Source of the DNA: Actinomycetes bacterium
GTDB taxonomy: Bacteria; Actinomycetota; Acidimicrobiia; Acidimicrobiales; RAAP-2
NCBI GenBank assembly: GCA_021810205.1
Contig: JAJZJC010000032.1
Coordinates: forward strand, 1-34,727
Reading direction: 5' to 3'
Length of the DNA stretch: 34,727 bases
In this document: in pieces, positions 4,058-32,108 of the stretch
Layout of the letters: each line of letters starts with the position of its first letter
Position numbering within the stretch: the first letter of the stretch is position 1
Program-made: the position numbers and the translations under genes
Notes under the pieces: model-generated
What the model was told of the DNA's origin: nothing
Database searches by the model: none
Seen by the model: only the letters and a program-made list of their open reading frames with translations

Positions 4058-4259
4058 AGATCCAGCACCGGCGCACGGCACACGACCGCGTCATGCCGGC
4101 AGGCCGCTTGGGGCCCGATCGCCGCGAAGGATGGTCACCTCGAGCACACCGAAGAATGCACTGCGTGAAGTCTGCGCGGCGGCGCTCGCACGCGCGCCCT
4201 TACGCTCCACTCTCGTGGGTGGATACCGGCGCATGCCTCCGCTCCGAGCCGGCGTCCGC

Positions 4260-5978
4260 ATGACGAGGTGGAGACCGCATCATCTCCTACGGTGCCAGCG
4301 TGTGCTGTGGGCAGCGATCGCCATGATCGTCGTCCTGATCGTCGCCCTGGCGAGCGGTGCCGTCCTCACGTGGTCCGCGAATCCCCCCTGGGCTGCGGCA
4401 GCGCCCGCCCTGCCGAGGCGTTCGGCACCGATCGAGGCGGCGCCGAGCGTGCACGGTCAGCCGCCCGTCACCGGCCCCCTACGGGCGCCGGGCGGCCCGT
4501 TCCTGCGTGACGCACTGGGACGGGTGGTGCTCCTTCGCGGGGTGAACGTCGTGTACAAGCGTGCGCCGTACGAGGTGTACCCCGATCCGGGAAAACCCTG
4601 GAACTTCGACGCGCACGACGCGTCCCTCATGGCACGGCTGGGCTTCGACGTCGTGCGCTTGGGCATGACCTGGAAGGGGCTCGAACCGGGGAAGGCCCCC
4701 GCGAACGATCCCGCGATCTGCAGGCGGGGTCGACCGGGCGATCCGCACCAGTACAACAGTGCAGTCCTCTACCGGTACCTCGCTCGGCTGAAGGAGACGG
4801 TCGACCTGCTCGCCCGGTTCCACATCTTCACGATCCTCGACATGCACCAAGACGTCTACAACGAGATGTTCGACGGGGAAGGCGCGCCGAACTGGGCGGT
4901 CTGCACCGACGGCTTGCCCAACGTGGACCCCCCGGGACGCTGGTCGAGCGAGTACGGGACGGCGGCCGCCGGCGCGGCGTTCCGCAACTTCTGGACCAAC
5001 GACGTGGTCGGCAACCTCCAAGGGCAGTTCGACTTCGTCTGGGGCAAGGTGGCGAGGTACTTCTCCAAGGACCCCTGGGTCATCGGCTTCGACCCGTTCA
5101 ACGAGCCGTTCTCCTCCTCGCTGGTCCGCTATGGCGGAGAGCACTTCGACGCACAGCTCCAGTGCTTCTACACCGGCAAGGCGCACACCGGGCCCCTGCT
5201 GCACGGCGCGCCGCCGATCAGGTGCCCTCGGGCAGTGCCCGAGAACGGCGTCGTCCCGAGGCTCCTCGCCAACGACCCCAACGCCCTTGTCTTCGACGAG
5301 CCGGACATCTTCGCCGACCGCGGGCTGCCGACCTTCCTCGGACCCATGCCGTTCCCGCACCTCGTCTTCAACTTCCACGTGTACTGCAGCGCGCGCAATC
5401 CGCAGACGGGAAACCCGACGGACGTCGCGGCCTGCGCCGCCCAGGAGCTCCGTGCGCTCGTGCGACGACGCCAGGACCGACGCGAGATGGCCTCTTCGTA
5501 CCAGCGCGGCGGCCCCGCATGGTTCATGAGCGAGTTCGGGGCGACCTCGGACCCCGCGCTGCTGTCGCCGTTGACCGCGATCGCCGACAGGGACTTCTTG
5601 GGGTGGACCTACTGGTCGTGGCGCTATTACGCGGACCCGACCGGCAGCGCCGCCGAGGCGCTCGTCATGGCCGATGGCAGGCTGCGCTCGACCGCGCGCG
5701 TACTGTCGCGCGTCTATCCGGAAGCGATCGCCGGCACGCCGCTGTCGATGCGCTTCGACCCGACAACCGGTGCGTTCAGCCTCGCATACCGGCCGGATCG
5801 GGCGATCGCCGCGCCGACCGTCATCCAGGTGCCCGTCCAGGTGCACTACCCCTCGGGCTACTGTGCCGCCGTGCGGGGCGGGCGCATCGTGTCACGGCGC
5901 ACAGCCCGGCTCCTCTTGGTCCGCCCGAGCTCGGCGCGCACGGTGCACGTCTCGATCCGGGCGGGGCGTTGCAGGTGA
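4260..5978 (+). CDS. Secreted GH5 endoglycoceramidase-like hydrolase
   Basis: The product is about 572 aa from ATG 4260. A basic N terminus and one hydrophobic segment (about residues 15-38) indicate a signal peptide or membrane anchor, followed by a Pro/Ala-rich spacer. A glycoside hydrolase family 5 barrel follows: LLRGVNVVYK opens it, LDMHQDVYN has D194, the acid/base Glu is E282 in DPFNEP, FNFHVYC lies near 370, and the nucleophile Glu is E425 in FMSEFGA. GWTYWSWRYY closes the barrel, and a C-terminal beta-sandwich of about 100 residues follows. This plan fits the endoglycoceramidase-like GH5 group, which cleaves glycan from glycolipids; the real substrate may be another lipid-linked or plant glycan. 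In-frame ATG 4131 and 4233 would lengthen the N terminus. Both catalytic Glu are present, so it is probably active. Confidence 0.85.
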   Translation: MTRWRPHHLLRCQRVLWAAIAMIVVLIVALASGAVLTWSANPPWAAAAPALPRRSAPIEAAPSVHGQPPVTGPLRAPGGPFLRDALGRVVLLRGVNVVYKRAPYEVYPDPGKPWNFDAHDASLMARLGFDVVRLGMTWKGLEPGKAPANDPAICRRGRPGDPHQYNSAVLYRYLARLKETVDLLARFHIFTILDMHQDVYNEMFDGEGAPNWAVCTDGLPNVDPPGRWSSEYGTAAAGAAFRNFWTNDVVGNLQGQFDFVWGKVARYFSKDPWVIGFDPFNEPFSSSLVRYGGEHFDAQLQCFYTGKAHTGPLLHGAPPIRCPRAVPENGVVPRLLANDPNALVFDEPDIFADRGLPTFLGPMPFPHLVFNFHVYCSARNPQTGNPTDVAACAAQELRALVRRRQDRREMASSYQRGGPAWFMSEFGATSDPALLSPLTAIADRDFLGWTYWSWRYYADPTGSAAEALVMADGRLRSTARVLSRVYPEAIAGTPLSMRFDPTTGAFSLAYRPDRAIAAPTVIQVPVQVHYPSGYCAAVRGGRIVSRRTARLLLVRPSSARTVHVSIRAGRCR

Positions 5979-21443: not shown

Positions 21444-21583
21444 ATAGGTACGGCAGCTCGCCGCACGGGCCGTAAGCTGGCATTATCGTGCTCGTGCGTC
21501 AGGTCCCGGCCACTGCTTCCGATAGCGCACTCCGTCGCCGATCCGAGCCGCGCCCCGAGGAGCAATCGGTAGCGATCTCCACC

Positions 21584-22519
21584 ATGTCGTCGACTGCGCG
21601 CAATGGACCGTCGACACAAAACGCCAGAATCTTCGACCCTGATGCGTTGTATTCACAGGCATCTCGCGAGAACTTTCCGGTGGCGTCGCGTCTGCTTCCT
21701 GCCGGCGTGCGCGCGCATCTCATGGCCATCTACGGCTTCGCCCGGTTGACCGACGACATCGGCGACGAGCTCGCAGGGGACCGGCTCGGGGCGCTGAACT
21801 GGCTGGCAGAGGAGCTCGAGCGAGCGCCCTCGGGGGGCGCCACCCACCCGGTGCTGCGCAGGGTCGGCGAGACCATCGCTGCGCGTCACCTCTCGCTCCA
21901 GCTGTTCCGCGACCTGATCGAAGCCAACCGCATGGACCAGATGGTGCGCCGCTACGAGACCTTCGGCGATCTCGTCGAGTACTGCCGACTGTCCGCGAAC
22001 CCCGTCGGCCGCCTCGTCCTCGAGGTGCTGGACCATTCGACCGACGCGCGCAACGCATGGTCCGATGACGTCTGCACCGGCCTCCAGGTCGTCGAGCACC
22101 TCCAGGACGTCGCCGAGGACCTCGCCCAGGATCGCGTCTACCTGCCCCTCGCCGACCTGCGTGGCGAGGGCACCGACCTCGAAGCGCTGCACGCCTCTTC
22201 CGCCGGCCCTGCGCTCCGGCGGGTCGTCGCGCTCGAGGCCGCCCGGGCGCGCCAGCTGCTCTTCTCCGGCGTCCCGCTGGCCGCCAGCCTCCCTTGGCGC
22301 CCGCGTGTCGCCATCGCCGCCTTCGCGGCGGGCGGCATGGCGGCGCTCGACGCCATCGAGCGTGCCCACTACGACGTGCTCGCCGTCCGCTGCCGTCCAC
22401 GCCCGGGCCGTCTCGCCGCTCGGCTCGCCCTCGTGCTCCTCGCCGGGGCGGGTTCGGCGCCCGAGCGCACGAGCAGCCCCGATGCGCCCGCAGCGAGCGG
22501 GCAAGAGACTCCGTCATGA
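21584..22519 (+). CDS. hpnC: Squalene/presqualene-type synthase HpnC
   Basis: The product is about 311 aa from ATG 21584. It is a trans-isoprenyl diphosphate synthase of the squalene/phytoene synthase family. The first Asp-rich motif is DDIGDE at residues 57-62, the second is LQDVAED around D175-D179, followed by DRVYLPLADL. In the three-enzyme HpnCDE route, HpnC turns presqualene diphosphate into hydroxysqualene. The second motif reads EHLQD where many relatives have NHLQD. The first 20 residues are non-conserved; GTG 21488 would extend them. It is the first gene of the hopanoid operon, and its stop overlaps the hpnD start by 4 bases. Confidence 0.9.
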   Translation: MSSTARNGPSTQNARIFDPDALYSQASRENFPVASRLLPAGVRAHLMAIYGFARLTDDIGDELAGDRLGALNWLAEELERAPSGGATHPVLRRVGETIAARHLSLQLFRDLIEANRMDQMVRRYETFGDLVEYCRLSANPVGRLVLEVLDHSTDARNAWSDDVCTGLQVVEHLQDVAEDLAQDRVYLPLADLRGEGTDLEALHASSAGPALRRVVALEAARARQLLFSGVPLAASLPWRPRVAIAAFAAGGMAALDAIERAHYDVLAVRCRPRPGRLAARLALVLLAGAGSAPERTSSPDAPAASGQETPS

Positions 22520-23379
22520 CGGTGGACCTGGCGCTCCAGCGCGCCTACGAGGAGTGCGAGGCGATCACGCGGCGGGAAGCGAAGAACTTCGCCTACGGCA
22601 TCCGCCTCCTGCACCCCCCCGAGCGGCGGGCACTGTCAGCGGTCTACGCGCTGGCACGGCGCATCGACGACATCGGCGACGGCGACGAGCCCGCGCAGCG
22701 CAAGGTGGAGGGGCTGGCCGCGGTCCGAAAGGGCCTCGGCACGCTCGGCGAGCCCACCGACGACCCCGTCTTTCGGGCAGTCGGGGACGTGGCAGCGCGC
22801 TACGACCTTCCCATCGACGCCTTCACCGACCTCGTGGACGGGTGCGAGATGGACGTCGCCGGGACCTCGTACCAGACGATCGACGACCTCGTCGTCTACT
22901 GCCGGCGCGTGGCAGGCTCGATCGGCAGGCTCTCGCTTGCCATCTTCGGCGCAGCCGGCGAGCCCGGGGCGCCCGGCATCGCCGACGACCTCGGTGTCGC
23001 GCTGCAGCTCACCAACATCTTGCGTGATGTGCGTGAGGATGCCGGACGTGGGCGCATCTACCTGCCCGCCGACGACGCGGCCGCTTGCGAGTGCCCCGCG
23101 GATCTCTCCGACGACGCGGGCCTGACCCGCCTGGTCGCCTTCGAGTGCCGCCGGGCCCAGGAGTGGTTCGACCAAGGCTTCCGGCTCCTCCCGATGCTCG
23201 ACCGGCGGAGCCGGGCCTGCGTCGGCGCGATGGCGGGCATCTACCACCGCCTGCTCCGTCGCATCTCCTTGGACCCCGGGGCGGTGCTGCGCGGCCGCGT
23301 GTCGCTGCCCGCGTCCGAAAAGCTGTGGATCGCAGCACGCTGCCTGTCCGGCGGCCGTGGCAGCGCGGGGGCGGCATGA
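22516..23379 (+). CDS. hpnD: Presqualene diphosphate synthase HpnD
   Basis: The product is 287 aa. It joins two farnesyl diphosphates into presqualene diphosphate. Signatures are REAKNFAYGIRLLHPPERRALSAVYALARRIDDIGD with the first Asp motif at 51-55, GCEMDVAGTSYQTIDDLVVYCRRVAGSIG, and LTNILRDVREDAGRGRIYLP with D171-D175. These match the HpnD group better than HpnC, including the YCRRVAGSIG helix. ATG 22516 is inside the hpnC stop (ATGA overlap) and defines the start. The length is normal and all motifs are intact. Confidence 0.93.
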   Translation: MTVDLALQRAYEECEAITRREAKNFAYGIRLLHPPERRALSAVYALARRIDDIGDGDEPAQRKVEGLAAVRKGLGTLGEPTDDPVFRAVGDVAARYDLPIDAFTDLVDGCEMDVAGTSYQTIDDLVVYCRRVAGSIGRLSLAIFGAAGEPGAPGIADDLGVALQLTNILRDVREDAGRGRIYLPADDAAACECPADLSDDAGLTRLVAFECRRAQEWFDQGFRLLPMLDRRSRACVGAMAGIYHRLLRRISLDPGAVLRGRVSLPASEKLWIAARCLSGGRGSAGAA

Positions 23380-24773
23380 CCCGCGCGCCCGGCGCCGGTG
23401 GCCGCATGGTCGTCGTCGGCGGTGGTCTCGCCGGCATCACCGCCGCGCTGGAGGCGGCCTCGCTCGGCGCCGAGGTCGTGCTCGTCGAACGGCGCGCCCG
23501 CCTCGGCGGGCTCACGTGGTCCTTCGAGCGCAACGGACGCACCTTCGACAACGGCCAGCACGTCTTCATGCGCTGCTGCCATGCATACCGCGCCTTTCTC
23601 CGCCGGATCGGCGCGGCGGACCAGGTGCACCTCCAATCACGCCTCGACGTCCCCGTGCTCGCGCCCGGTGGCCGCCAGGCGCACATCTCACGCAGCACCG
23701 CGCCCCTGCCCTCGCCTCTCCACCTGGCAGGGTCGCTTCTCTCCTACAGCCATCTCGGCGTGAAGGACCGCCTGCGTGCGGGACAGGTGGTCGCCGCGCT
23801 CAGGCGGCTGCGGCTGGACGACCCGTCGCTCGACGCCGAGTCCTTCGGCAGCTTCCTCGCCCGCCATGGCCAGTCGGCCGCGGCGCTGGAGCGCCTCTGG
23901 GACCTCGTCATCCTGCCGACGGTGAACGTCGGCGCCGCGGAGGCCTCGCTCGCCCTCGCCGCCAAGGTCTTGCGCACCGGCCTGCTCGATCAGGCCGACG
24001 GCGGCGACCTCGGATGGTCGCTCGTGCCCCTGGGAGTGCTCCACGGTGAGAACGGTCGCCGAGCGCTCGAGCGCGCCGGGGTCGAGGTGCTGTGCTCGAC
24101 CGCCGTCGACGCCATCGCGGCCGGCGCCCGCGGAGCGGGCGGGCACGGGGCCGACGCCAGCCCAGTGACGGTCACGGCAGGGAGCCGCCGGCTGCGGGCA
24201 GACGCCGTGGTGGTGGCAGTCGCCCACGACGCGGCGCGCGCGCTCCTGCCCGCTGACGCCATCGGAGACCTCTCGGGCCTCGGGCGCTCCCCGATCGTGA
24301 ACGTCCACCTCGTCTTGGACCGCAAGGTCACCGATCTACCCTTCGCGGCCGCCGTCGGCTCCCCCGTCCAGTTCGTCTTCGACCGGACGGACTCCTCGGG
24401 CACCGAGGCGGGTACGCAGTGCCTCGTGGTGTCGCTGTCCGCGGCGACAGGCGAGATCGGCGCTCGCCCCGAGACGCTGGTCACGCGGTACTTCGAGGCG
24501 CTCGGCACGCTCTTCCCCGCTGCACGCCGGGCCTCGCTCGTCGACGCCGTGGTGACTCGAGAGCACGCGGCCACGTTCCGCGGCGTGCCCGGCACTGCGG
24601 CGCTGCGCCTGGGACCGTCGACCGCCTGCCACGGCGTCTACGTGGCGGGCGCATGGTGTGCCACCGGGTGGCCCGCCACCATGGAGGGCGCGGTCCGCGC
24701 TGGCAACGCAGCGGCCGCCGCGGCCATCACCGGGTGCCGCATCGAGCGTCCGCTCGAGGAGGTACCCGCGTGA
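23376..24773 (+). CDS. hpnE: Hydroxysqualene dehydroxylase HpnE
   Basis: The product is 465 aa, a flavin amine oxidase/phytoene desaturase relative that reduces hydroxysqualene to squalene. The FAD-binding GxGxxG appears as VVVGGGLAGITAALEAASLGAEVVLVERR near residue 12, followed by RLGGLTWSFERNG and DNGQHVFMRCCHAY, a stretch typical of HpnE. The C-terminal FAD motif is GVYVAGAWCATGWPATMEGAVRAGNAAA. The linker around residue 250 is Gly/Ala-rich. ATG 23376 overlaps the hpnD stop by 4 bases; an upstream in-frame region is the hpnD gene in another frame. Confidence 0.93.
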   Translation: MTRAPGAGGRMVVVGGGLAGITAALEAASLGAEVVLVERRARLGGLTWSFERNGRTFDNGQHVFMRCCHAYRAFLRRIGAADQVHLQSRLDVPVLAPGGRQAHISRSTAPLPSPLHLAGSLLSYSHLGVKDRLRAGQVVAALRRLRLDDPSLDAESFGSFLARHGQSAAALERLWDLVILPTVNVGAAEASLALAAKVLRTGLLDQADGGDLGWSLVPLGVLHGENGRRALERAGVEVLCSTAVDAIAAGARGAGGHGADASPVTVTAGSRRLRADAVVVAVAHDAARALLPADAIGDLSGLGRSPIVNVHLVLDRKVTDLPFAAAVGSPVQFVFDRTDSSGTEAGTQCLVVSLSAATGEIGARPETLVTRYFEALGTLFPAARRASLVDAVVTREHAATFRGVPGTAALRLGPSTACHGVYVAGAWCATGWPATMEGAVRAGNAAAAAAITGCRIERPLEEVPA

Positions 24774-25756
24774 TCGACCCCGCCGTCCCGGTTCCAACGA
24801 CCCTGGCGCGAGCTTCCGTGGCGATCGGCCCGAGCCTGGACGCCGCTGTCGACCGCCTCGACCCCTCGCTGCATGAGCCCGTGCGCCACCACCTCGCGGG
24901 CGGAGGCAAGCACGTGCGCGCCGGCCTCGTGCTCCTGGGCGCCCGGGCCGTCGACGGACGAGAGGAGGACGCGTACTGCGGCGCCGTGGCCATCGAGCTC
25001 GTCCACAACTACTCCTTGCTGCACGACGACATCATCGACGGCGACCGCGAGCGGCGGCACCGCCCGACGGTGTGGGTCCGCTACGGCGAGGGCGTGGCGA
25101 TCGTGTGCGGCGATGCCCTCGCAGCGCTGGCGATGCAGGTGCTCTTCGACGACCCGTCTCCCACCCGCATCCGCGCTGGCGCGCTGCTCGCCGACGCCAA
25201 CCAGGCCATGATCGCCGGCCAGTCAGCGGACATGGCGTTCGAGCACCGCCCGCGCGTCACCGTCGACGAGTGCCTGGCGATGGAGCGCTCCAAGACGGGC
25301 GCGCTGCTCGGTGCGGCGGCCGCAATCGGCGCCATCCTCGGGGGCGGGGACGACGGGACCGTGAACGCGCTCGGCGCGTACGGCGAGCACCTCGGCATCG
25401 CGTTCCAGGCGATCGACGACGTGCTCGGGATCTGGGGAGACCCGAACGTCACCGGCAAGCCGGTCGGCGCGGATCTCCTCGCGCGAAAAAAGACGCTGCC
25501 CGTCGCGGTCGCGATGGCCTCGGACGACGGCACGGCCGCCGAGCTCGAGGAGATCCTGTCGCGCGAGCTCGGTACGGACGACGTCGCGCGGGCGAGCCGC
25601 CTCATCGAGGCGAGCGGCGCCCGCGAGGCGGTCGCCGGGATCGCCGACGACCACTTGAAGCAGGCGCTCGGCGCGCTCGAGCGGGCCGCGCTCGACGACG
25701 CAGCGAAGGAGGAGCTCGTGTCGGTCGCCTACTACGTGACGGCGAGGGACAAGTGA
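24770..25756 (+). CDS. Polyprenyl diphosphate synthase (FPP/GGPP-type)
   Basis: The product is 328 aa, an all-trans isoprenyl diphosphate synthase. GGGKHVRAGLVLL is region 1, the first Asp motif is DDIID in HNYSLLHDDIIDGDRERRHRPT, and the second is AFQAIDDVLGIWGDPNVTGKPVGADL, ending in RKKTLPV. A Tyr five residues before the first motif, as in short-chain enzymes, suggests a C15-C20 product; farnesyl diphosphate for HpnD would make sense, geranylgeranyl diphosphate is possible. GTG 24770 follows GAGGAGG by 7 bases and overlaps the hpnE stop by 4 bases. Its counterpart lies in the same place in Streptomyces hopanoid clusters. Confidence 0.92.
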   Translation: MIDPAVPVPTTLARASVAIGPSLDAAVDRLDPSLHEPVRHHLAGGGKHVRAGLVLLGARAVDGREEDAYCGAVAIELVHNYSLLHDDIIDGDRERRHRPTVWVRYGEGVAIVCGDALAALAMQVLFDDPSPTRIRAGALLADANQAMIAGQSADMAFEHRPRVTVDECLAMERSKTGALLGAAAAIGAILGGGDDGTVNALGAYGEHLGIAFQAIDDVLGIWGDPNVTGKPVGADLLARKKTLPVAVAMASDDGTAAELEEILSRELGTDDVARASRLIEASGAREAVAGIADDHLKQALGALERAALDDAAKEELVSVAYYVTARDK

Positions 25757-27738
25757 TGACCGCCATCGACGAAACCCACGATGCCGTGCCCGGTGCGCTG
25801 GTAGCGCCGGGTGGGCCCGGCGGGCTGGCAGCGCCGGGCACCGCGAGCCCGCCGGAAGACACCGTCGCGGAGGCAGCCCAGACGTTGAAGAAGGCGGCGG
25901 AGGCGTTGCGCGCGCTGCAGGATCCTGCGGGCTTTTGGAAGGGCGAGCTCGAGACCAACGTCACGATGGATGCCGAGGACCTCCTGCTGCGCCAGTTCCT
26001 CGGGATCCGGACCGACGCGCAGACCCGATCGAGCGCCAAGTGGATCCGTGCGAACCAGCGTGAGGACGGCACGTGGGCAAACTTCTACGGCGGCCCCGGT
26101 GACCTGTCGACGACGATCGAGGCGTACGTGGCCTTGAAGCTCGCAGGCGACTCCCCCGACGACGACCACATGCGTCGGGCCCTCGCCTTCGTGCGCAACG
26201 AGGGCGGCCTCGAGCGCGCCCGCGTGTTCACCAAGATGTGGATGGCGCTCTTCGGCAAGTGGTCGTGGGACGAGCTGCCGGTGCTCCCACCCGAGCTCGT
26301 CTTCCTCCCACCACGGGTGCCGCTCAACATCTACGACTTCGGATGCTGGGCGCGCCAGACCGTCGTCGCGTTGACGGTGGTCAGCGCGTACCGCCCCTGC
26401 AAGGACCTCGGCGTGGACATCGAGGAGCTGCGTACCGGACACCCCGGCCCCCCGCGGCATCCCTGGTGGAGCGTGACGGGTGCGCTCGAGCGAGCGGACC
26501 TCCTTGCGCGCCGCTACGGGCGACGCCCGTGGCGGCTCGTGCGCGAGGCGGCCCTGCGGGAGGCCGAGCGCTGGATCATCGAACGCCAGGAGGCCGACGG
26601 CGGATGGGGGGGTATCCAACCGCCATGGGTGTACTCGCTGATGGCGCTGCACCTGCGCGGCTATGCACTGACGCATCCGGTCATGCAGGCAGGAATTGCC
26701 GGCCTCGAAGGCTTCACCATCGAAGACGACAAGGGCCGGCGTCTCGAGGCGTGCCAGTCACCGGTCTGGGACACCGCCCTCGCGATCGTGGGACTGAGCG
26801 ACGCGGGTGTCGACCGTGACGATCCAGCGCTGCGACGTGCCGCACGCTGGCTCATCACACAAGAGGTCACCGTCGACGGTGACTGGCGGGTGCGGCGTCC
26901 GAGCCTGGCACCCGGCGGCTGGGCGTTCGAATTCTGGAACGACCACTACCCCGACGTCGACGACACGGCGGAGGTCGTCCTCTCCCTCCTTCGCACCAAC
27001 GAGGACGACGGTGGCGCCGTCGAGCGCGCGGTCGACTGGGTGCTCGGCATGCAGTGCAGCGACGGAGGGTGGGCGGCCTTCGACGTCGACAACACCCGCA
27101 CCCTCTGCCGCAAGTTGCCTTTCTTCGACTTCGGCGAGCTCATCGACCCGCCCAGCGCCGACGTCACTGCGCACGTCGTCGAGATGCTCGGGGTCCTGCG
27201 CCGCCGTCGTGCGCGCTGCGAGGACCGGTTCGCCACGGCCATGGACCGCGGCGTTGCCTGGCTGCTCCGCGCGCAGGAGCGCGACGGCTCGTGGTTCGGC
27301 CGCTGGGGCGCGAACTACATCTACGGGACCGGAGCGGTGGTGCCCGCGCTCGTCGAGGCCGGCGTTCCCGCCTCGCACCCCTCGATCCGTCGAGCGGTCG
27401 CCTGGCTCGAGACGCACCAGGGTGACGACGGGGGCTGGGGTGAGGACCTCCGCTCCTACGACGACCCGTCGTGGGCCGGACGGGGCACCTCGACGGCCTC
27501 GCAGACGGCGTGGGCGCTCCTCGCGCTGCTCGCGGCAGACGAAGGCGACGGCGAGGCGGCACGGCGTGGCGTCGAGTTCCTGTCACGCACGCAGCTGCCG
27601 AACGGCACGTGGGACGAGCCCGAATTCACCGGGACGGGGTTTCCGGGCGCCTTCTACATCAACTACCACCTCTACCGGCTCGTGTTCCCCGTCGCCGCGC
27701 TGGGCCGCTTCGTAGACAGGGATGGCGCACATGGGTGA
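25756..27738 (+). CDS. shc: Squalene-hopene cyclase
   Basis: The product is 660 aa and cyclises squalene to hopene/hopanol at the membrane. The catalytic DxDD is DVDD at residues 400-403, in YPDVDDTAEVVLSLL. Several QW repeats are visible: QEDGTWANFYGGPGDLS, QEADGGWGGIQPP, CSDGGWAAFD, QERDGSWFGRWG, QGDDGGWGEDL and QLPNGTWDEPEF; the C-terminal GFPGAFYINYHLYR is also typical. The N-terminal 30 residues are Gly/Pro/Ala-rich and non-conserved. ATG 25756 shares one base with the preceding stop (TGATG). The length is close to the family norm and nothing looks missing. Confidence 0.97.
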   Translation: MTAIDETHDAVPGALVAPGGPGGLAAPGTASPPEDTVAEAAQTLKKAAEALRALQDPAGFWKGELETNVTMDAEDLLLRQFLGIRTDAQTRSSAKWIRANQREDGTWANFYGGPGDLSTTIEAYVALKLAGDSPDDDHMRRALAFVRNEGGLERARVFTKMWMALFGKWSWDELPVLPPELVFLPPRVPLNIYDFGCWARQTVVALTVVSAYRPCKDLGVDIEELRTGHPGPPRHPWWSVTGALERADLLARRYGRRPWRLVREAALREAERWIIERQEADGGWGGIQPPWVYSLMALHLRGYALTHPVMQAGIAGLEGFTIEDDKGRRLEACQSPVWDTALAIVGLSDAGVDRDDPALRRAARWLITQEVTVDGDWRVRRPSLAPGGWAFEFWNDHYPDVDDTAEVVLSLLRTNEDDGGAVERAVDWVLGMQCSDGGWAAFDVDNTRTLCRKLPFFDFGELIDPPSADVTAHVVEMLGVLRRRRARCEDRFATAMDRGVAWLLRAQERDGSWFGRWGANYIYGTGAVVPALVEAGVPASHPSIRRAVAWLETHQGDDGGWGEDLRSYDDPSWAGRGTSTASQTAWALLALLAADEGDGEAARRGVEFLSRTQLPNGTWDEPEFTGTGFPGAFYINYHLYRLVFPVAALGRFVDRDGAHG

Positions 27739-29221
27739 CATGATCCTCCTCGCACCGACAGGGGTAGAAGCCAACGTCATGGGCGCTGACGTCCTCGTGA
27801 CCGGCTCCGACGCCAGCAGCGTCGCGGGCGCGGGCGCGCACCTCGCCGCGGGGCAGGGGCAGACCGTGCCTGTGGCCCTCGCAGGCACCGCTGAGCGACT
27901 GTCCGCGGAGCTCCAGCCGGGCCAGCTCGTCGTCGCGAGCGAGCTGTGGACGCTCGACGAAGGTGGCGGCGTCGTCGTGCGCCGCAGGCTCGAGTGCGCC
28001 GAGCTCGTGGCGAGCGAGCTGCGCCACGAGGGCCACGACGTCGTCGTGGGGCCTGTGCTCACTGCAGGCGTCGACGACGACAGGGGTCCGCTCGTCGCGA
28101 GCGGCGCGCTGGTGCTCGACCACGATTCGGCCTGGGCCGCGGCGCTCGTCGACGACGACCGGCCGCTTGCCGTCGTCCGCGCGGTCGAGGACCGCATGGG
28201 CCCCGGCGCGATGGCGGCAGCGGACACCCGGTACGCGGCACTGGCGCTCGACAGGGTCCGCATCCCGCTCGAGCGCTGGGCACGGGCATGTCGCGCCCGG
28301 CGGGTGCTCATGGCCGCACCCCGCTCGTTCTGCGCCGGCGTCGAACGCGCGATAGAGATCGTCGAGCGCGCATTGGCCCGCTACGGCGCCCCGGTCTATG
28401 TACGGCGCCAGATCGTGCACAACGTGCACGTCGTCCGTCGTCTGGCCGGCATGGGGGCCGTGTTCGTCGAAGAGCTCGACGAGGTCCCCGACGGCGCGAC
28501 CGTGGTGCTCGCCGCCCACGGCGTCGCGCCAGCCGTGCGCGACGAGGCCGCGCGACGCCACGGGTTCACGGTGATCGACGCCACCTGTCCGCTCGTTGCC
28601 AAGGTGCACCACGAAGCACGGCGCTACGCCGCCAAGGGCTACCAGCTCGTCCTCGTGGGCCACGGCGACCACGAGGAGGTCGTGGGCACCGTCGGGGAAG
28701 CTCCCGAGCGCACCTCTCTCGTGCAGTCCCCGGCCGACGTGCAGGCGCTCTCGCTGCGCGACGACGCCCGGGTCGCCTACCTGACCCAGACCACGCTCGC
28801 GACCGACGAGACGGCGGAAGTGATCGATGCCCTTCGGGCACGCTTCCCCGATATCGTGGGTCCCAGCGCCGACGACATCTGCTACGCGACGCAGAACCGC
28901 CAGGAGGCTGTGCGTGAGATCGCGCACGACTGCGACCTCTTGCTCGTCGTCGGCTCACAGAACTCGTCGAACACCGCCCGGCTCGTGGAGGTGGCCCGGC
29001 GAGAAGGTTGCAAGGCAGAGCTGGTGGAGGACGCCAGCCAGCTCCGCCTCGCGTGGCTCGAGGGTGCAGGCACCATCGGGCTCACTGCAGGCGCGTCCGC
29101 CCCCGAGTCTCTCGTGACCGAAGTGGTCCAGGCACTCTCCAGCCTGGGTCCCATCGAGATCGACGAACGCAGGACCACCCAAGAAACCGTCCGATTCTCT
29201 CTTCCACTGCAGGTGCGCTGA
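27722..29221 (+). CDS. ispH: HpnG-like phosphorylase module fused to IspH
   Basis: The product is 499 aa. Residues about 195-499 are a complete 4-hydroxy-3-methylbut-2-enyl diphosphate reductase. The three [4Fe-4S] cysteines are C204 (PRSFCAGVERA), C289 (DATCPLVAKVH) and C387 (DDICYATQNRQEA); HNVHVV, AAHGV, GHGDHEEVVGTVGE, TQTTLATDET, GSQNSSNT and TAGASAPES are also kept. It makes IPP and DMAPP, the last MEP step. Residues 1-190 resemble HpnG, the nucleoside-phosphorylase-like protein that removes adenine from adenosylhopane: VALAGTAERLSAELQPGQLVVASELW, then GALVLDHDSAWAAAL and PLAVVRAVEDR. The usual DMES reads DHDS, so activity of this half is uncertain. ATG 27722 overlaps shc by 17 bases; ATG 27731 or 27740 are alternatives. 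Confidence 0.88.
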   Translation: MAHMGDMILLAPTGVEANVMGADVLVTGSDASSVAGAGAHLAAGQGQTVPVALAGTAERLSAELQPGQLVVASELWTLDEGGGVVVRRRLECAELVASELRHEGHDVVVGPVLTAGVDDDRGPLVASGALVLDHDSAWAAALVDDDRPLAVVRAVEDRMGPGAMAAADTRYAALALDRVRIPLERWARACRARRVLMAAPRSFCAGVERAIEIVERALARYGAPVYVRRQIVHNVHVVRRLAGMGAVFVEELDEVPDGATVVLAAHGVAPAVRDEAARRHGFTVIDATCPLVAKVHHEARRYAAKGYQLVLVGHGDHEEVVGTVGEAPERTSLVQSPADVQALSLRDDARVAYLTQTTLATDETAEVIDALRARFPDIVGPSADDICYATQNRQEAVREIAHDCDLLLVVGSQNSSNTARLVEVARREGCKAELVEDASQLRLAWLEGAGTIGLTAGASAPESLVTEVVQALSSLGPIEIDERRTTQETVRFSLPLQVR

Positions 29222-30225
29222 TGCCAATTCCCTTGAAGCAGAACGCCAGGATCGGAGCCCATCTCCTCAAGCAGCGCCTGAAGGGGCGCAAGTACTACCC
29301 CTTCATCGTGGAGATCGAGCCCCTGTTCGCGTGCAACCTCTCCTGTCCCGGCTGCGGCAAGATCCAGCATCCCACTGACATCCTGCGCAAGCGACTCTCG
29401 GTCGAAGACGTCGTGCACGCCGTCGAGGAGAGTGACGCGCCCATGGTGTCGATCGCCGGCGGCGAGCCGCTGCTGCACCCCGACATCGCCCGGATGGTGG
29501 AAGAGCTCGTCAAGCGCAAGGTGTACGTCTACCTCTGCACCAATGCCGTGCTGCTCCAGCGGCGGATGGACAAGTTCACCCCGAACCACTTCTTCTCCTT
29601 CGTGGTCCACATGGACGGCCTGCGCGAGCGCCACGATGCGGCGGTCGACCGCGAGGGCGTCTTCGACAAGGCCGTCGATGCGATCAAGGAGGCGAAGCGC
29701 CGCGGCTTCCGTGTGACGACGAACTCCACGTTCTTCAACACCGACTCGCCGAAGACGGTGCGTGACCTCCTCGACTTCTTGAACGACGACCTCGAGGTCG
29801 ACGCGATGATGATCTCCCCGGCCTACGCGTACGAGAAGGCTCCCGACCAAGAGCACTTCCTCGGCGTCGAGCAGACCCGCAAGCTGTTCCGCGAGGCCTT
29901 CGCGGGAAAGCGCAAGAAGTGGCGCCTGAACCACTCACCGCTCTTCCTCGACTTCTTGGAGGGCAAGAGGGACTTCGACTGCACCGCCTGGGGAATCCCG
30001 AGCTACTCGGTCCTCGGCTGGCAGCGGCCGTGCTACCTCATGTCGGATGGCTACGTCTCGAGCTACAAGGAGCTCGTCGAGACGACCGACTGGTCGAAGT
30101 ACGGAAGAGGCAAGGACCCGCGTTGCGCCAACTGCATGGCGCACTGCGGCTACGAGCCCTCCGCGGTCATCGCGTCGATGGGATCGCTACGCGAGTCGTT
30201 GCGTGCTCTGGTGAGCACGCACTGA
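29221..30225 (+). CDS. hpnH: Adenosyl-hopene transferase HpnH (radical SAM)
   Basis: The product is 334 aa. The radical SAM cluster cysteines C38, C42 and C45 (CNLSCPGC) follow FIVEIEPLFA. The SAM-binding IAGGEPLLHPDI, the HMDGLRERHDAAV and NSTFFNTDSP segments, and a C-terminal Cys cluster (CYLMSDGYVSSYKELV, then CANCMAHCGYEPSAV) are typical of HpnH, which adds a 5'-deoxyadenosyl group to hopene (diploptene) to make adenosylhopane. ATG 29221 shares one base with the ispH stop (TGATG). It is the first extended-side-chain gene; the later steps need a phosphorylase, which may be the module in the previous gene. Confidence 0.95.
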   Translation: MPIPLKQNARIGAHLLKQRLKGRKYYPFIVEIEPLFACNLSCPGCGKIQHPTDILRKRLSVEDVVHAVEESDAPMVSIAGGEPLLHPDIARMVEELVKRKVYVYLCTNAVLLQRRMDKFTPNHFFSFVVHMDGLRERHDAAVDREGVFDKAVDAIKEAKRRGFRVTTNSTFFNTDSPKTVRDLLDFLNDDLEVDAMMISPAYAYEKAPDQEHFLGVEQTRKLFREAFAGKRKKWRLNHSPLFLDFLEGKRDFDCTAWGIPSYSVLGWQRPCYLMSDGYVSSYKELVETTDWSKYGRGKDPRCANCMAHCGYEPSAVIASMGSLRESLRALVSTH

Positions 30226-30230
30226 GCCGC

Positions 30231-32108
30231 GTGACGACGCTTCGCGACACGCTGTCGATCTCCGACGACGGCGTCGATGGCCTGTACGACAGCGCGCGCA
30301 CTGCCGGCGCCGGCAACGGCGGCGAAGCCGAGCCCGGGATCCCGCCGACCACGTCGCTGCTCGAGCGGTTGAGCCCCGCCGCGCTCCGGGCGATGGACTC
30401 GGCGGCGCTCGAGCACCTCGCCGCGGACATCCGCCGGTTCCTCGTCTCGTCGGTCGCGGCGTCGGGCGGCCACCTCGGCTCCAATCTCGGCGCGGTGGAG
30501 CTCTCCCTCTCGCTGCACCGCGTGTTCGACTCGCCCGCGGATCCGATCGTCTGGGACACCGGCCACCAGGCCTACGTGCACAAGGTGATCACGGGCAGAG
30601 CGGCAGCGTTCGCCACCCTGCGCCGGGCCGGCGGGCTCTCTGGCTACCCGAACCGTGCCGAGTCGGTGCACGACCTTGTCGAGAACAGCCACGCCTCTAC
30701 CGCGCTCTCCTACGCCGACGGCCTCGCGCGCGCTCGGGACCTGCGCGGTGAGACCCATCACGTGGTGGCGGTCATCGGCGACGGTGCGCTCACCGGCGGG
30801 CTCGCCTACGAAGCGTTGAACAACATCGGCACCACCGGTCGGCGTGTGGTCGTCGTGCTGAACGACAATGGCCGCTCCTACGCCCCCACGGTCTCCCGGC
30901 TCACGACCGCCGACGCGGTGGCGAGGGGCGACGCGGGTGACGCTGCGCAGGCACCGGCTGCGTTCTTCGGGTCCCTCGGCCTCGCGTACCTCGGACCGGT
31001 CGACGGGCACGACGTAGAAGCCCTCGATACCGCGCTCGCCGAGGCGGCGAAGTGTCCTGGCCCCGTCGTGGTCCACGTGCACACGGTGAAGGGCCGCGGC
31101 TACGCGCCCGCCGAGCTCGACGGCGAGAAGTGCCTCCACGACGTCTCCCCCTTCGACCCCGAGACCGGGCGCCCACGGGTCGACAAGCGGCGTGTCCCGA
31201 GCTACACCGAGGCGTTCGGGAGCGCGCTGCTCCGCGAGGCCGCAGCTCGGCCCGACGTCGTCGCTGTCACCGCCGCGATGACCGGTCCGACCGGCCTCCT
31301 GCCCTTCGCCGAGCGCTTCGCCGATCGGCTGGTGGACGTGGGCATCGCCGAGCAGCACGCGGTCACCGTCGCCGCGGGCATGGCGATGGGCGGGCTGCGC
31401 CCCGTGGTCGCGATCTACTCCACCTTCTTGAACCGTGCGTGGGACCAGCTCGTCCACGACGTCGGTCTCCACCGGCTTCCCGTCGTGTTCTGCATCGACC
31501 GCGCAGGGATCACCGGTGACGACGGCCCGAGCCACCACGGCACCCTCGACCTGGCCCTCTTGACCAAGGTGCCGGGCATGACCGTGCTCGTGCCGTCTTC
31601 GTACGAGGAGGTCGCCGTCATGCTCCACGACGCCCTCGAGGTCACCGGCGGTCCCGTGGCGATCCGCTGGCCGAAGACCCCGGCACGCCACTGCCCCACG
31701 ACCGGCCACGGGCTGGCAGCGCGCCGGATCGTCGCCGGCGACGGCTCCCTCTGCCTGCTCGGCGTCGGCAAGCTCGTCGAGACCTGCGAGCAGGCCGCGA
31801 CGATCCTCGCCGAGCGCGGCATCGAGTCGACCGTCTGGGACGTCCGAGTGGCAAGCCCGCTCGACCCCGCCATGCTGGCAGATGCCGGCGCCCACCGCGC
31901 GGTGCTCACTGCCGAAGACGGGGTCGCGGCAGGCGGCGTGGGTGCGATGGTACGAGCGGCGCTCGGCCCACGAGCAGCGGTCGAGACCTGCGGCCTTCCG
32001 CTCGCGTATCTGCGACACGGCAAGCCCGACGAGATCCTCGCGTCCCTCGGCCTCGATGCGCCCGGGATCGTCCGGACTGCAGCCAGCCTTCTCGTCACGT
32101 CCCGCTAA
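30231..32108 (+). CDS. dxs: 1-deoxy-D-xylulose-5-phosphate synthase
   Basis: The product is about 625 aa, normal for Dxs, which condenses pyruvate and glyceraldehyde 3-phosphate with thiamine diphosphate to start the MEP pathway. Signatures are SGGHLGSNLGAVELSLSLH, DTGHQAYVHK, the ThDP site GDGALTGGLAYEALNN (D184) with LNDN, GPVDGHD, then VDVGIAEQHAVTVAAGMAM and DRAGITGDDGPSHHGTLDLALL. GTG 30231 lies 6 bases past the hpnH stop; the reading frame before it is not conserved. The first 40 residues are variable. It closes the operon; a 15-bp repeat starts 8 bases after the stop. Placing dxs here would match precursor supply to hopanoid demand. Confidence 0.95.
   Translation: MTTLRDTLSISDDGVDGLYDSARTAGAGNGGEAEPGIPPTTSLLERLSPAALRAMDSAALEHLAADIRRFLVSSVAASGGHLGSNLGAVELSLSLHRVFDSPADPIVWDTGHQAYVHKVITGRAAAFATLRRAGGLSGYPNRAESVHDLVENSHASTALSYADGLARARDLRGETHHVVAVIGDGALTGGLAYEALNNIGTTGRRVVVVLNDNGRSYAPTVSRLTTADAVARGDAGDAAQAPAAFFGSLGLAYLGPVDGHDVEALDTALAEAAKCPGPVVVHVHTVKGRGYAPAELDGEKCLHDVSPFDPETGRPRVDKRRVPSYTEAFGSALLREAAARPDVVAVTAAMTGPTGLLPFAERFADRLVDVGIAEQHAVTVAAGMAMGGLRPVVAIYSTFLNRAWDQLVHDVGLHRLPVVFCIDRAGITGDDGPSHHGTLDLALLTKVPGMTVLVPSSYEEVAVMLHDALEVTGGPVAIRWPKTPARHCPTTGHGLAARRIVAGDGSLCLLGVGKLVETCEQAATILAERGIESTVWDVRVASPLDPAMLADAGAHRAVLTAEDGVAAGGVGAMVRAALGPRAAVETCGLPLAYLRHGKPDEILASLGLDAPGIVRTAASLLVTSR

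Follow-up and report, generated by a model that had tools for sequence, protein, structure and literature searches.

Two earlier reports bear on the gene treated here. Rao et al. (2015) listed a fusion of a "UDP/PNP phosphorylase" with IspH in the Frankia strains QA3, EUN1f and EAN1pec, classed it among the fusions known from one species or several strains thereof, and considered that such rare hybrids might be random, while pointing out that both partners handle phosphorus (PMC4746011). The same source reports IspH-RPS1 fusion proteins (NF000907) as active (PMC4746011). For HpnG, termed a putative phosphorylase, the stated role is to take adenine off the product that HpnH makes (PMC12583986). 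The present analysis concerns an hpnG-ispH fused gene in a hopanoid operon of an Actinomycetes bacterium of the RAAP-2 family (assembly GCA_021810205.1, contig JAJZJC010000032.1). The window is the whole stretch of DNA that was analysed, 34,727 nucleotides in length, and all positions are counted from its first letter.

An original prediction, made from the sequence of the window, held that the joining of an HpnG-like module to IspH would be a new arrangement if not already catalogued. This can be maintained in part. A phosphorylase-IspH fusion was on record in 2015 for the three Frankia strains, while HpnG identity and a link to hopanoids are not given in that account; the word hopanoid is absent from its searched text, where the fusion is not identified as HpnG (PMC4746011). 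No open-access paper tying an IspH fusion to HpnG was found, subscription journals being mostly outside the search.

We think it likely, though well short of certain, that the gene encodes one polypeptide in which a second IspH of the genome, the one belonging to the hopanoid operon, follows an N-terminal HpnG-type domain, and that this domain has lost its catalytic function in the genus of the window and in the sister genus (G019). The gene and its parts are as follows.

27722..29221, + strand: fused hpnG-ispH gene, 499 amino acids (frame, profile matches, fusion conserved in relatives)
27722..28300, + strand: residues 1-193, HpnG-like phosphorylase domain with an eroded active site (TIGR03468, hhalign, motif table, dN/dS)
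28118..28129, + strand: D-H-D-S, residues 133-136, at the site of D-M-E-S/T in intact relatives, the presumed catalytic Glu being replaced
28301..29218, + strand: IspH domain, residues 194-499 (PF02401; E. coli IspH fold)
28331..28333, + strand: Cys204 codon, invariant in 45/45 fused proteins
28586..28588, + strand: Cys289 codon, invariant in 45/45 fused proteins
28880..28882, + strand: Cys387 codon, invariant in 45/45 fused proteins

One frame and a complete IspH

The frame is free of stops from ATG 27722 to TGA 29219-29221, with candidate starts at 27722, 27731 and 27740. If the first ATG is used, the gene overlaps shc, whose stop TGA lies at 27736-27738, by 17 bases, and the hpnH ATG at 29221 overlaps the stop of the fused gene by one base. 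Such small overlaps suggest how slight a change could join two genes. The HpnG-like region and complete IspH predicted to share one stop-free frame are present, and the IspH cysteines stand at 204, 289 and 387 as claimed.

The open frame alone proves little because long chance frames are common in GC-rich DNA; stop-free frames near these genes reach 981 codons, and hundreds of codons arise by chance. Both domains share a frame in 45 proteins from different genomes, and the full window protein aligns in a single frame with 19 relatives at 52-75% identity. No linker separates the two domains; the final helix of HpnG (..ERWARACRAR) continues directly into the start of IspH, RVLMAAPRSFCAG. When 13 codons around the IspH motif were scanned in 46 fused genes, none showed a Shine-Dalgarno stretch of at least 4 bases before a possible internal start, and in 24 of them a start codon was wholly absent. 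RNA folding at the junction gave nothing notable (z -1.31).

The IspH half is well defined. PF02401 covers residues 195-472 (E 8e-94), TIGR00216 scores 316 bits against a cut-off of 187.85, and all 11 IspH residues that were checked are invariant in 45/45 fused proteins. We take the three cysteines to be the cluster ligands, and the His, Glu, Thr, Ser and Asn positions to be those of the active site. AlphaFold models the IspH part with confidence, and this part matches the E. coli enzyme (~50% identity; TM-score 0.95, scaled by target length); a structure search with the model gave a good match on this part only. The IspH half should be active. Another IspH (262.8 bits) is encoded on contig C12 of the same genome, which measures 3.0 Mb and is 72% complete.

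Identity and state of the HpnG half

The sequence of the window protein by itself says little about its N-terminal half. TIGR03468, the HpnG model, matches residues 52-160 with E 8.8e-4 and 18.9 bits, where the curated cut-off is 187.1; taken alone, this is weak support for HpnG identity. Pfam gave no match for the N-terminal part, the single N-part sequence had no usable hit in the PDB (best E 0.72), and the genus N-domains, made into a profile by themselves, reached only E 0.013 against solved structures. The relatives provide the connection. The profile made from 11 relatives whose motifs are canonical, nine fused and two standalone, matches solved MTA/SAH nucleosidases (E 2.7e-13, e.g. PDB 3bl6), and hhalign placed nine genus N-domains on these 11 relatives over 184 columns (99.9%, E 8.5e-33). 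It is through these profiles that the predicted HpnG-like module is confirmed despite its weak own score: the N-terminal part is related to nucleoside phosphorylases, and no stop separates the two halves.

In a tree of 69 rows, the fused N-domains side with standalone HpnG of Streptomyces-type genomes, with a support of 94/87 that is just under the usual 95 mark. Opposite them lie the standalone HpnG proteins from family f60, Acidithiobacillus and Methylomirabilota, along with two MTA/SAH nucleosidases and an unlinked protein from contig C130 of the window's own genome that is described below; a long nucleosidase row, L141, was placed on the fused side, its placement being unsure. A separate hpnG within the order shc-hpnG-hpnH occurs in Streptomyces (L234, L235), in Actinacidiphila (L236) and in f64 genomes grouping with L235. 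Within the order of the window it also occurs in L171 and L172, two genomes with no ispH at that place. The tree, the profile alignment and the operon place agree in pointing to shared descent of the fused N-domain with standalone HpnG of hopanoid operons. We note here that HpnG proteins in hopanoid clusters of Streptomyces-type genomes score about 66-79 bits to TIGR03468, so that the cut-off of 187 misses this branch, and genome annotation may overlook it for that reason. As a counter of HpnG over the phylum the model was rejected, as it matches MTAN/PNP proteins at large (179/296 genomes and 12/14 controls).

For the state of the active site, three acidic positions were compared by alignment, Glu16, residue 135 and Asp157 of the window protein, which we take to correspond to Glu12, Glu174 and Asp197 of E. 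coli MTAN. The window protein has Glu16, Asp135 and Asp157, and D-H-D-S where intact relatives have D-M-E-S/T. The middle Glu is absent in 12/12 proteins of the genus and sister genus and present in 33/33 other fused proteins. Within the former set, Asp157 is retained in 4/12, Glu16 in 6/12 and all three acidic residues in 0/12. Among the other fused proteins all three are found in 32/33, only L019 being without the first, and the motif reads D-M-E-S/T in 31/33 and D-T-E-S in 2/33. The S-x-P-R-F/Y-V that typically forms the loop following G-P-V in the family has been replaced in the genus; in L011 (G008) and L012 (G009) this loop is occupied by in-frame six-residue repeats (VFSADP, VGPVVS).

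The ratio of nonsynonymous to synonymous substitution rates (dN/dS) was compared between the two halves. For six genus pairs it was 0.34-0.95 in the N-part vs 0.07-0.19 in the IspH part (Fisher p 0.009 to 4e-6), the quotient of the two being 2.0-10.3 with p<0.01 throughout. Two further genus pairs gave 0.40 vs 0.18 and 0.32 vs 0.19. For nine canonical family pairs the values were 0.07-0.36 vs 0.09-0.32, with quotients of 0.5-3.1 and no p<0.05. The original prediction had offered a bifunctional protein; for the window protein this proposal finds no support, as the phosphorylase active site is not conserved in the genus, the middle Glu being lost throughout. Bifunctionality would, on these alignments, suit most relatives better than the window protein. 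Most likely the HpnG half of the window's genus is catalytically failing or retired.

A candidate stand-in lies on C130 (L137:1135-1794), where an unlinked 220-amino-acid MTAN/HpnG-like protein has D-M-E-T and S-D motifs and scores 70.9 bits to TIGR03468. A search with this single protein found its type in 13/13 genus genomes and in G019 and G060 (E 6e-19 or better), and the same 15 came up with a profile that drew on 12 of them (E 2e-36 or better), the best profile match in 20 other fused family genomes being 1.8e-11. A 36% relative occurs in G627, which lies outside the family and has canonical motifs. The co-occurrence of the C130 protein and the fusion may reflect one or two events. Several frames adjoining the C130 gene (L137, L228) are conserved across the genus.

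Several observations weigh against, or limit, the reading of a lost HpnG activity. The N-part dN/dS is raised in all 8 genus pairs, yet also in ~4/12 others: canonical pairs L023-L025 (0.47 vs 0.15, quotient ~3.1), L021-L025 (0.41 vs 0.18, ~2.2) and L020-L021 (0.34 vs 0.18, ~1.8), all three without a Fisher test, and L263-L264 (3.1, p 0.10). Because the rise extends beyond the genus, confidence in decay is slightly reduced; moreover, the pairs were chosen by hand, share species and are non-independent. The N-domain is not free of constraint in the genus, because 48 of its positions remain invariant there (11 rows). Two of the three acidic residues, Glu16 and Asp157, are still present in the window protein, and the substitution at 135, with Asp in place of Glu, is mild, so that weak activity would be possible. 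The catalytic roles of these residues are presumed from MTA/SAH nucleosidase. AlphaFold models the N-domain poorly, residues 1-67 and 114-176 having a predicted local distance difference test score (pLDDT) under 50. Finally, the C130-type protein is present in 9/35 family genomes without a detected fusion, 8/9 of these being without HpnH as judged at E<=1e-40; G023 has HpnH at a contig edge, where a cut fusion is possible. Because it also occurs in genomes lacking both fusion and HpnH, the C130 protein is more likely a general purine-cleaving enzyme and a mere candidate for the HpnG step, and its clean replacement of the fused HpnG is weakened accordingly.

Operon context and spread

A family-model scan of the window gave the operon order hpnC, hpnD, hpnE, prenyl diphosphate synthase, shc, fusion, hpnH, dxs. 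The genes around the fusion are the following.

21488..22519, + strand: hpnC frame, true start possibly internal (TIGR03464, 286.7 bits, above cut-off)
22294..23379, + strand: hpnD frame, domain from ~residue 92 (TIGR03465, 279.0 bits, cut-off 278.6)
23085..24773, + strand: hpnE frame, domain from ~residue 108 (TIGR03467, 373.8 bits, above cut-off)
24419..25756, + strand: polyprenyl diphosphate synthase frame, domain from ~residue 127 (family-model match)
25753..27738, + strand: shc, squalene-hopene cyclase (TIGR01507, 734 bits)
29221..30225, + strand: hpnH, adenosyl-hopene transferase (TIGR03470, 515.9 bits)
29919..32108, + strand: dxs frame, domain from ~residue 146 (TIGR00204, 571 bits)

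The family models for shc and hpnH thus agree with the predicted hopanoid operon in which hpnH is the next gene. The order from hpnC through hpnD, hpnE, prenyl synthase, shc and fusion to hpnH is kept in family loci spanning the region, and locus L034 has the same operon genes in a different order. A cargo-holding scaffold, also raised at the outset, left no sign in the family-model scan of the window proteins, and no wider search was made. The prenyl synthase frame matches NF041169, the family 2 encapsulin cargo polyprenyl transferase model, with 348 bits against a cut-off of 450; as it is the sole match to a cargo model and below the cut-off, the encapsulin cargo idea was rejected. Elsewhere in the window, 4131-5978 encodes a glycoside hydrolase family 5 (GH5) protein with the GH5 C-terminal domain PF18564.

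The fusion with both domains was found in 32/172 genomes of the family, a 33rd copy being interrupted by a contig end; in at least 8/395 genomes of the class among the matches listed, including G576, which was added after its frame was inspected; and in 4/296 genomes drawn from the phylum (E<=1e-100). The window's own genome is included in these three counts. In the genus it is whole in 11/13 genomes and cut by a contig end in G010, and it was not found in G011. Three of 11 hand-picked genomes have it, namely L034, chosen since the fusion was already known there, Frankia tisae (L232) and Pseudonocardia sulfidoxydans. In P. sulfidoxydans it is flanked by shc and hpnH; in F. tisae it adjoins shc, with no hpnH in the ~490 bases available beyond the fusion. 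Because the linkerless fusion recurs in family, class, phylum, Frankia and Pseudonocardia, an assembly slip can be dismissed. A scan of genome contigs for the fusion mostly returned ordinary IspH, the N-domain being matched only in L033 and L034 of 80 loci. IspH matches that reached the N-domain in G108, G161, G350 and G368 were discarded, inspection of the frames revealing long upstream open frames without an HpnG domain. A search of plasmids gave no match.

In the IspH tree the fused IspH halves cluster (87/90), and four unfused IspHs are placed among them. One of these, from G469 (L170 8751-9665, C15), lies between shc and hpnH without an HpnG domain; that genome carries an MTAN/HpnG-like protein elsewhere. 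The other three (L036, L203 and L206, from Actinokineospora and two actinobacterial genomes) have neither shc nor hpnH in the stretches of DNA examined. Since four unfused IspHs nest within the group, a single origin with losses and several origins are both compatible with the tree.

Readings of the fusion and comparison with known systems

Gene order, trees and alignment suggest that an ispH was attached, without a linker, to an hpnG that had stood alone between shc and hpnH. The fused proteins of most relatives retain the catalytic residues of HpnG and are probably bifunctional; they would make isopentenyl and dimethylallyl diphosphate and also cleave adenine off adenosylhopane. The conserved active site of the HpnG half is lost in the genus and sister genus, and by pair counts from the genus this half evolves faster than the IspH half. 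There the HpnG half would most likely be non-catalytic, its frame being held by the downstream IspH. Adenine removal might then pass to another enzyme, perhaps the C130 protein, or adenosylhopane might be the end product, both of which are speculative.

Among the alternatives, the best placed, though we consider it unlikely, is that the N-domain is now a regulatory or structural module of IspH, putatively mediating feedback by adenosylhopane or adenine or placing IspH near HpnH or Shc. The frame is intact in all 11 whole genus copies, and there are genus-specific conserved stretches, including a junction helix with R185, W186, R188, A189, C190 and R191. However, family fusions with canonical motifs conserve the junction Trp as well, so that it need not be new, and a dN/dS near 0.9 in one trio points to decay over new function. 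We are less inclined to believe that the protein is fully bifunctional, its HpnG half acting on adenosylhopane in the genus via shifted active-site residues. The two acidic residues left in the window protein, the conserved N-domain core and the canonical residues of relatives would fit such an activity, but none of the three acidic positions is conserved genus-wide, the dN/dS is raised, and repeats have replaced the loop in two species. More doubtful again is a combined scheme in which an IspH dedicated to hopanoids bears a pseudo-phosphorylase as a lasting N-terminal part that acts as a sensor of adenosylhopane or adenine, or as a tether between IspH and HpnH, and an unlinked MTAN/HpnG-like enzyme removes adenine; if true, one half of a fusion would have switched from catalyst to regulator. 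That hpnG and ispH are two separately translated genes, brought into apparent union by a chance frame or assembly error, is scarcely credible, for although long chance frames occur in GC-rich DNA, the same frame spans both domains in 45 genomes and the junctions offer no Shine-Dalgarno stretch of at least 4 bases and often no start codon.

An IspH fusion whose HpnG-type domain has most likely lost catalysis is the reading we retain for the window's genus. The arrangement seen in 2015 in Frankia alone and deemed possibly random proves to recur in the hopanoid operons of Actinomycetota, which suggests that isoprenoid supply and the building of the hopanoid side chain are genuinely linked. Separate HpnG, canonical fusion, fusion with an eroded HpnG, and IspH alone at the same place form a graded series, which provides natural test cases for the purpose of the joining. 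Genome-based counts of hpnG may miss the fused form or overcall its activity.

Compared with known systems, the window's domain is homologous to standalone HpnG (TIGR03468) and has the same operon place before hpnH, but it differs in being fused to IspH, in the loss of the catalytic motif in the window's genus and in scoring far under the family cut-off. With MTA/SAH nucleosidase (PDB 3bl6) the canonical relatives share sequence family and motifs, while the substrate is different and the window domain is without the M-E motif. IspH-RPS1 is likewise an IspH fusion, its partner being ribosomal protein S1, which is unrelated to HpnG. The Frankia fusion of Rao et al. (2015) is nearest, having a phosphorylase-family domain and IspH in one chain, and the F. 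tisae fusion is probably of the same kind; relative to what that account gives, the present locus adds HpnG identity, the hopanoid operon, a wider occurrence and probable decay in one genus.

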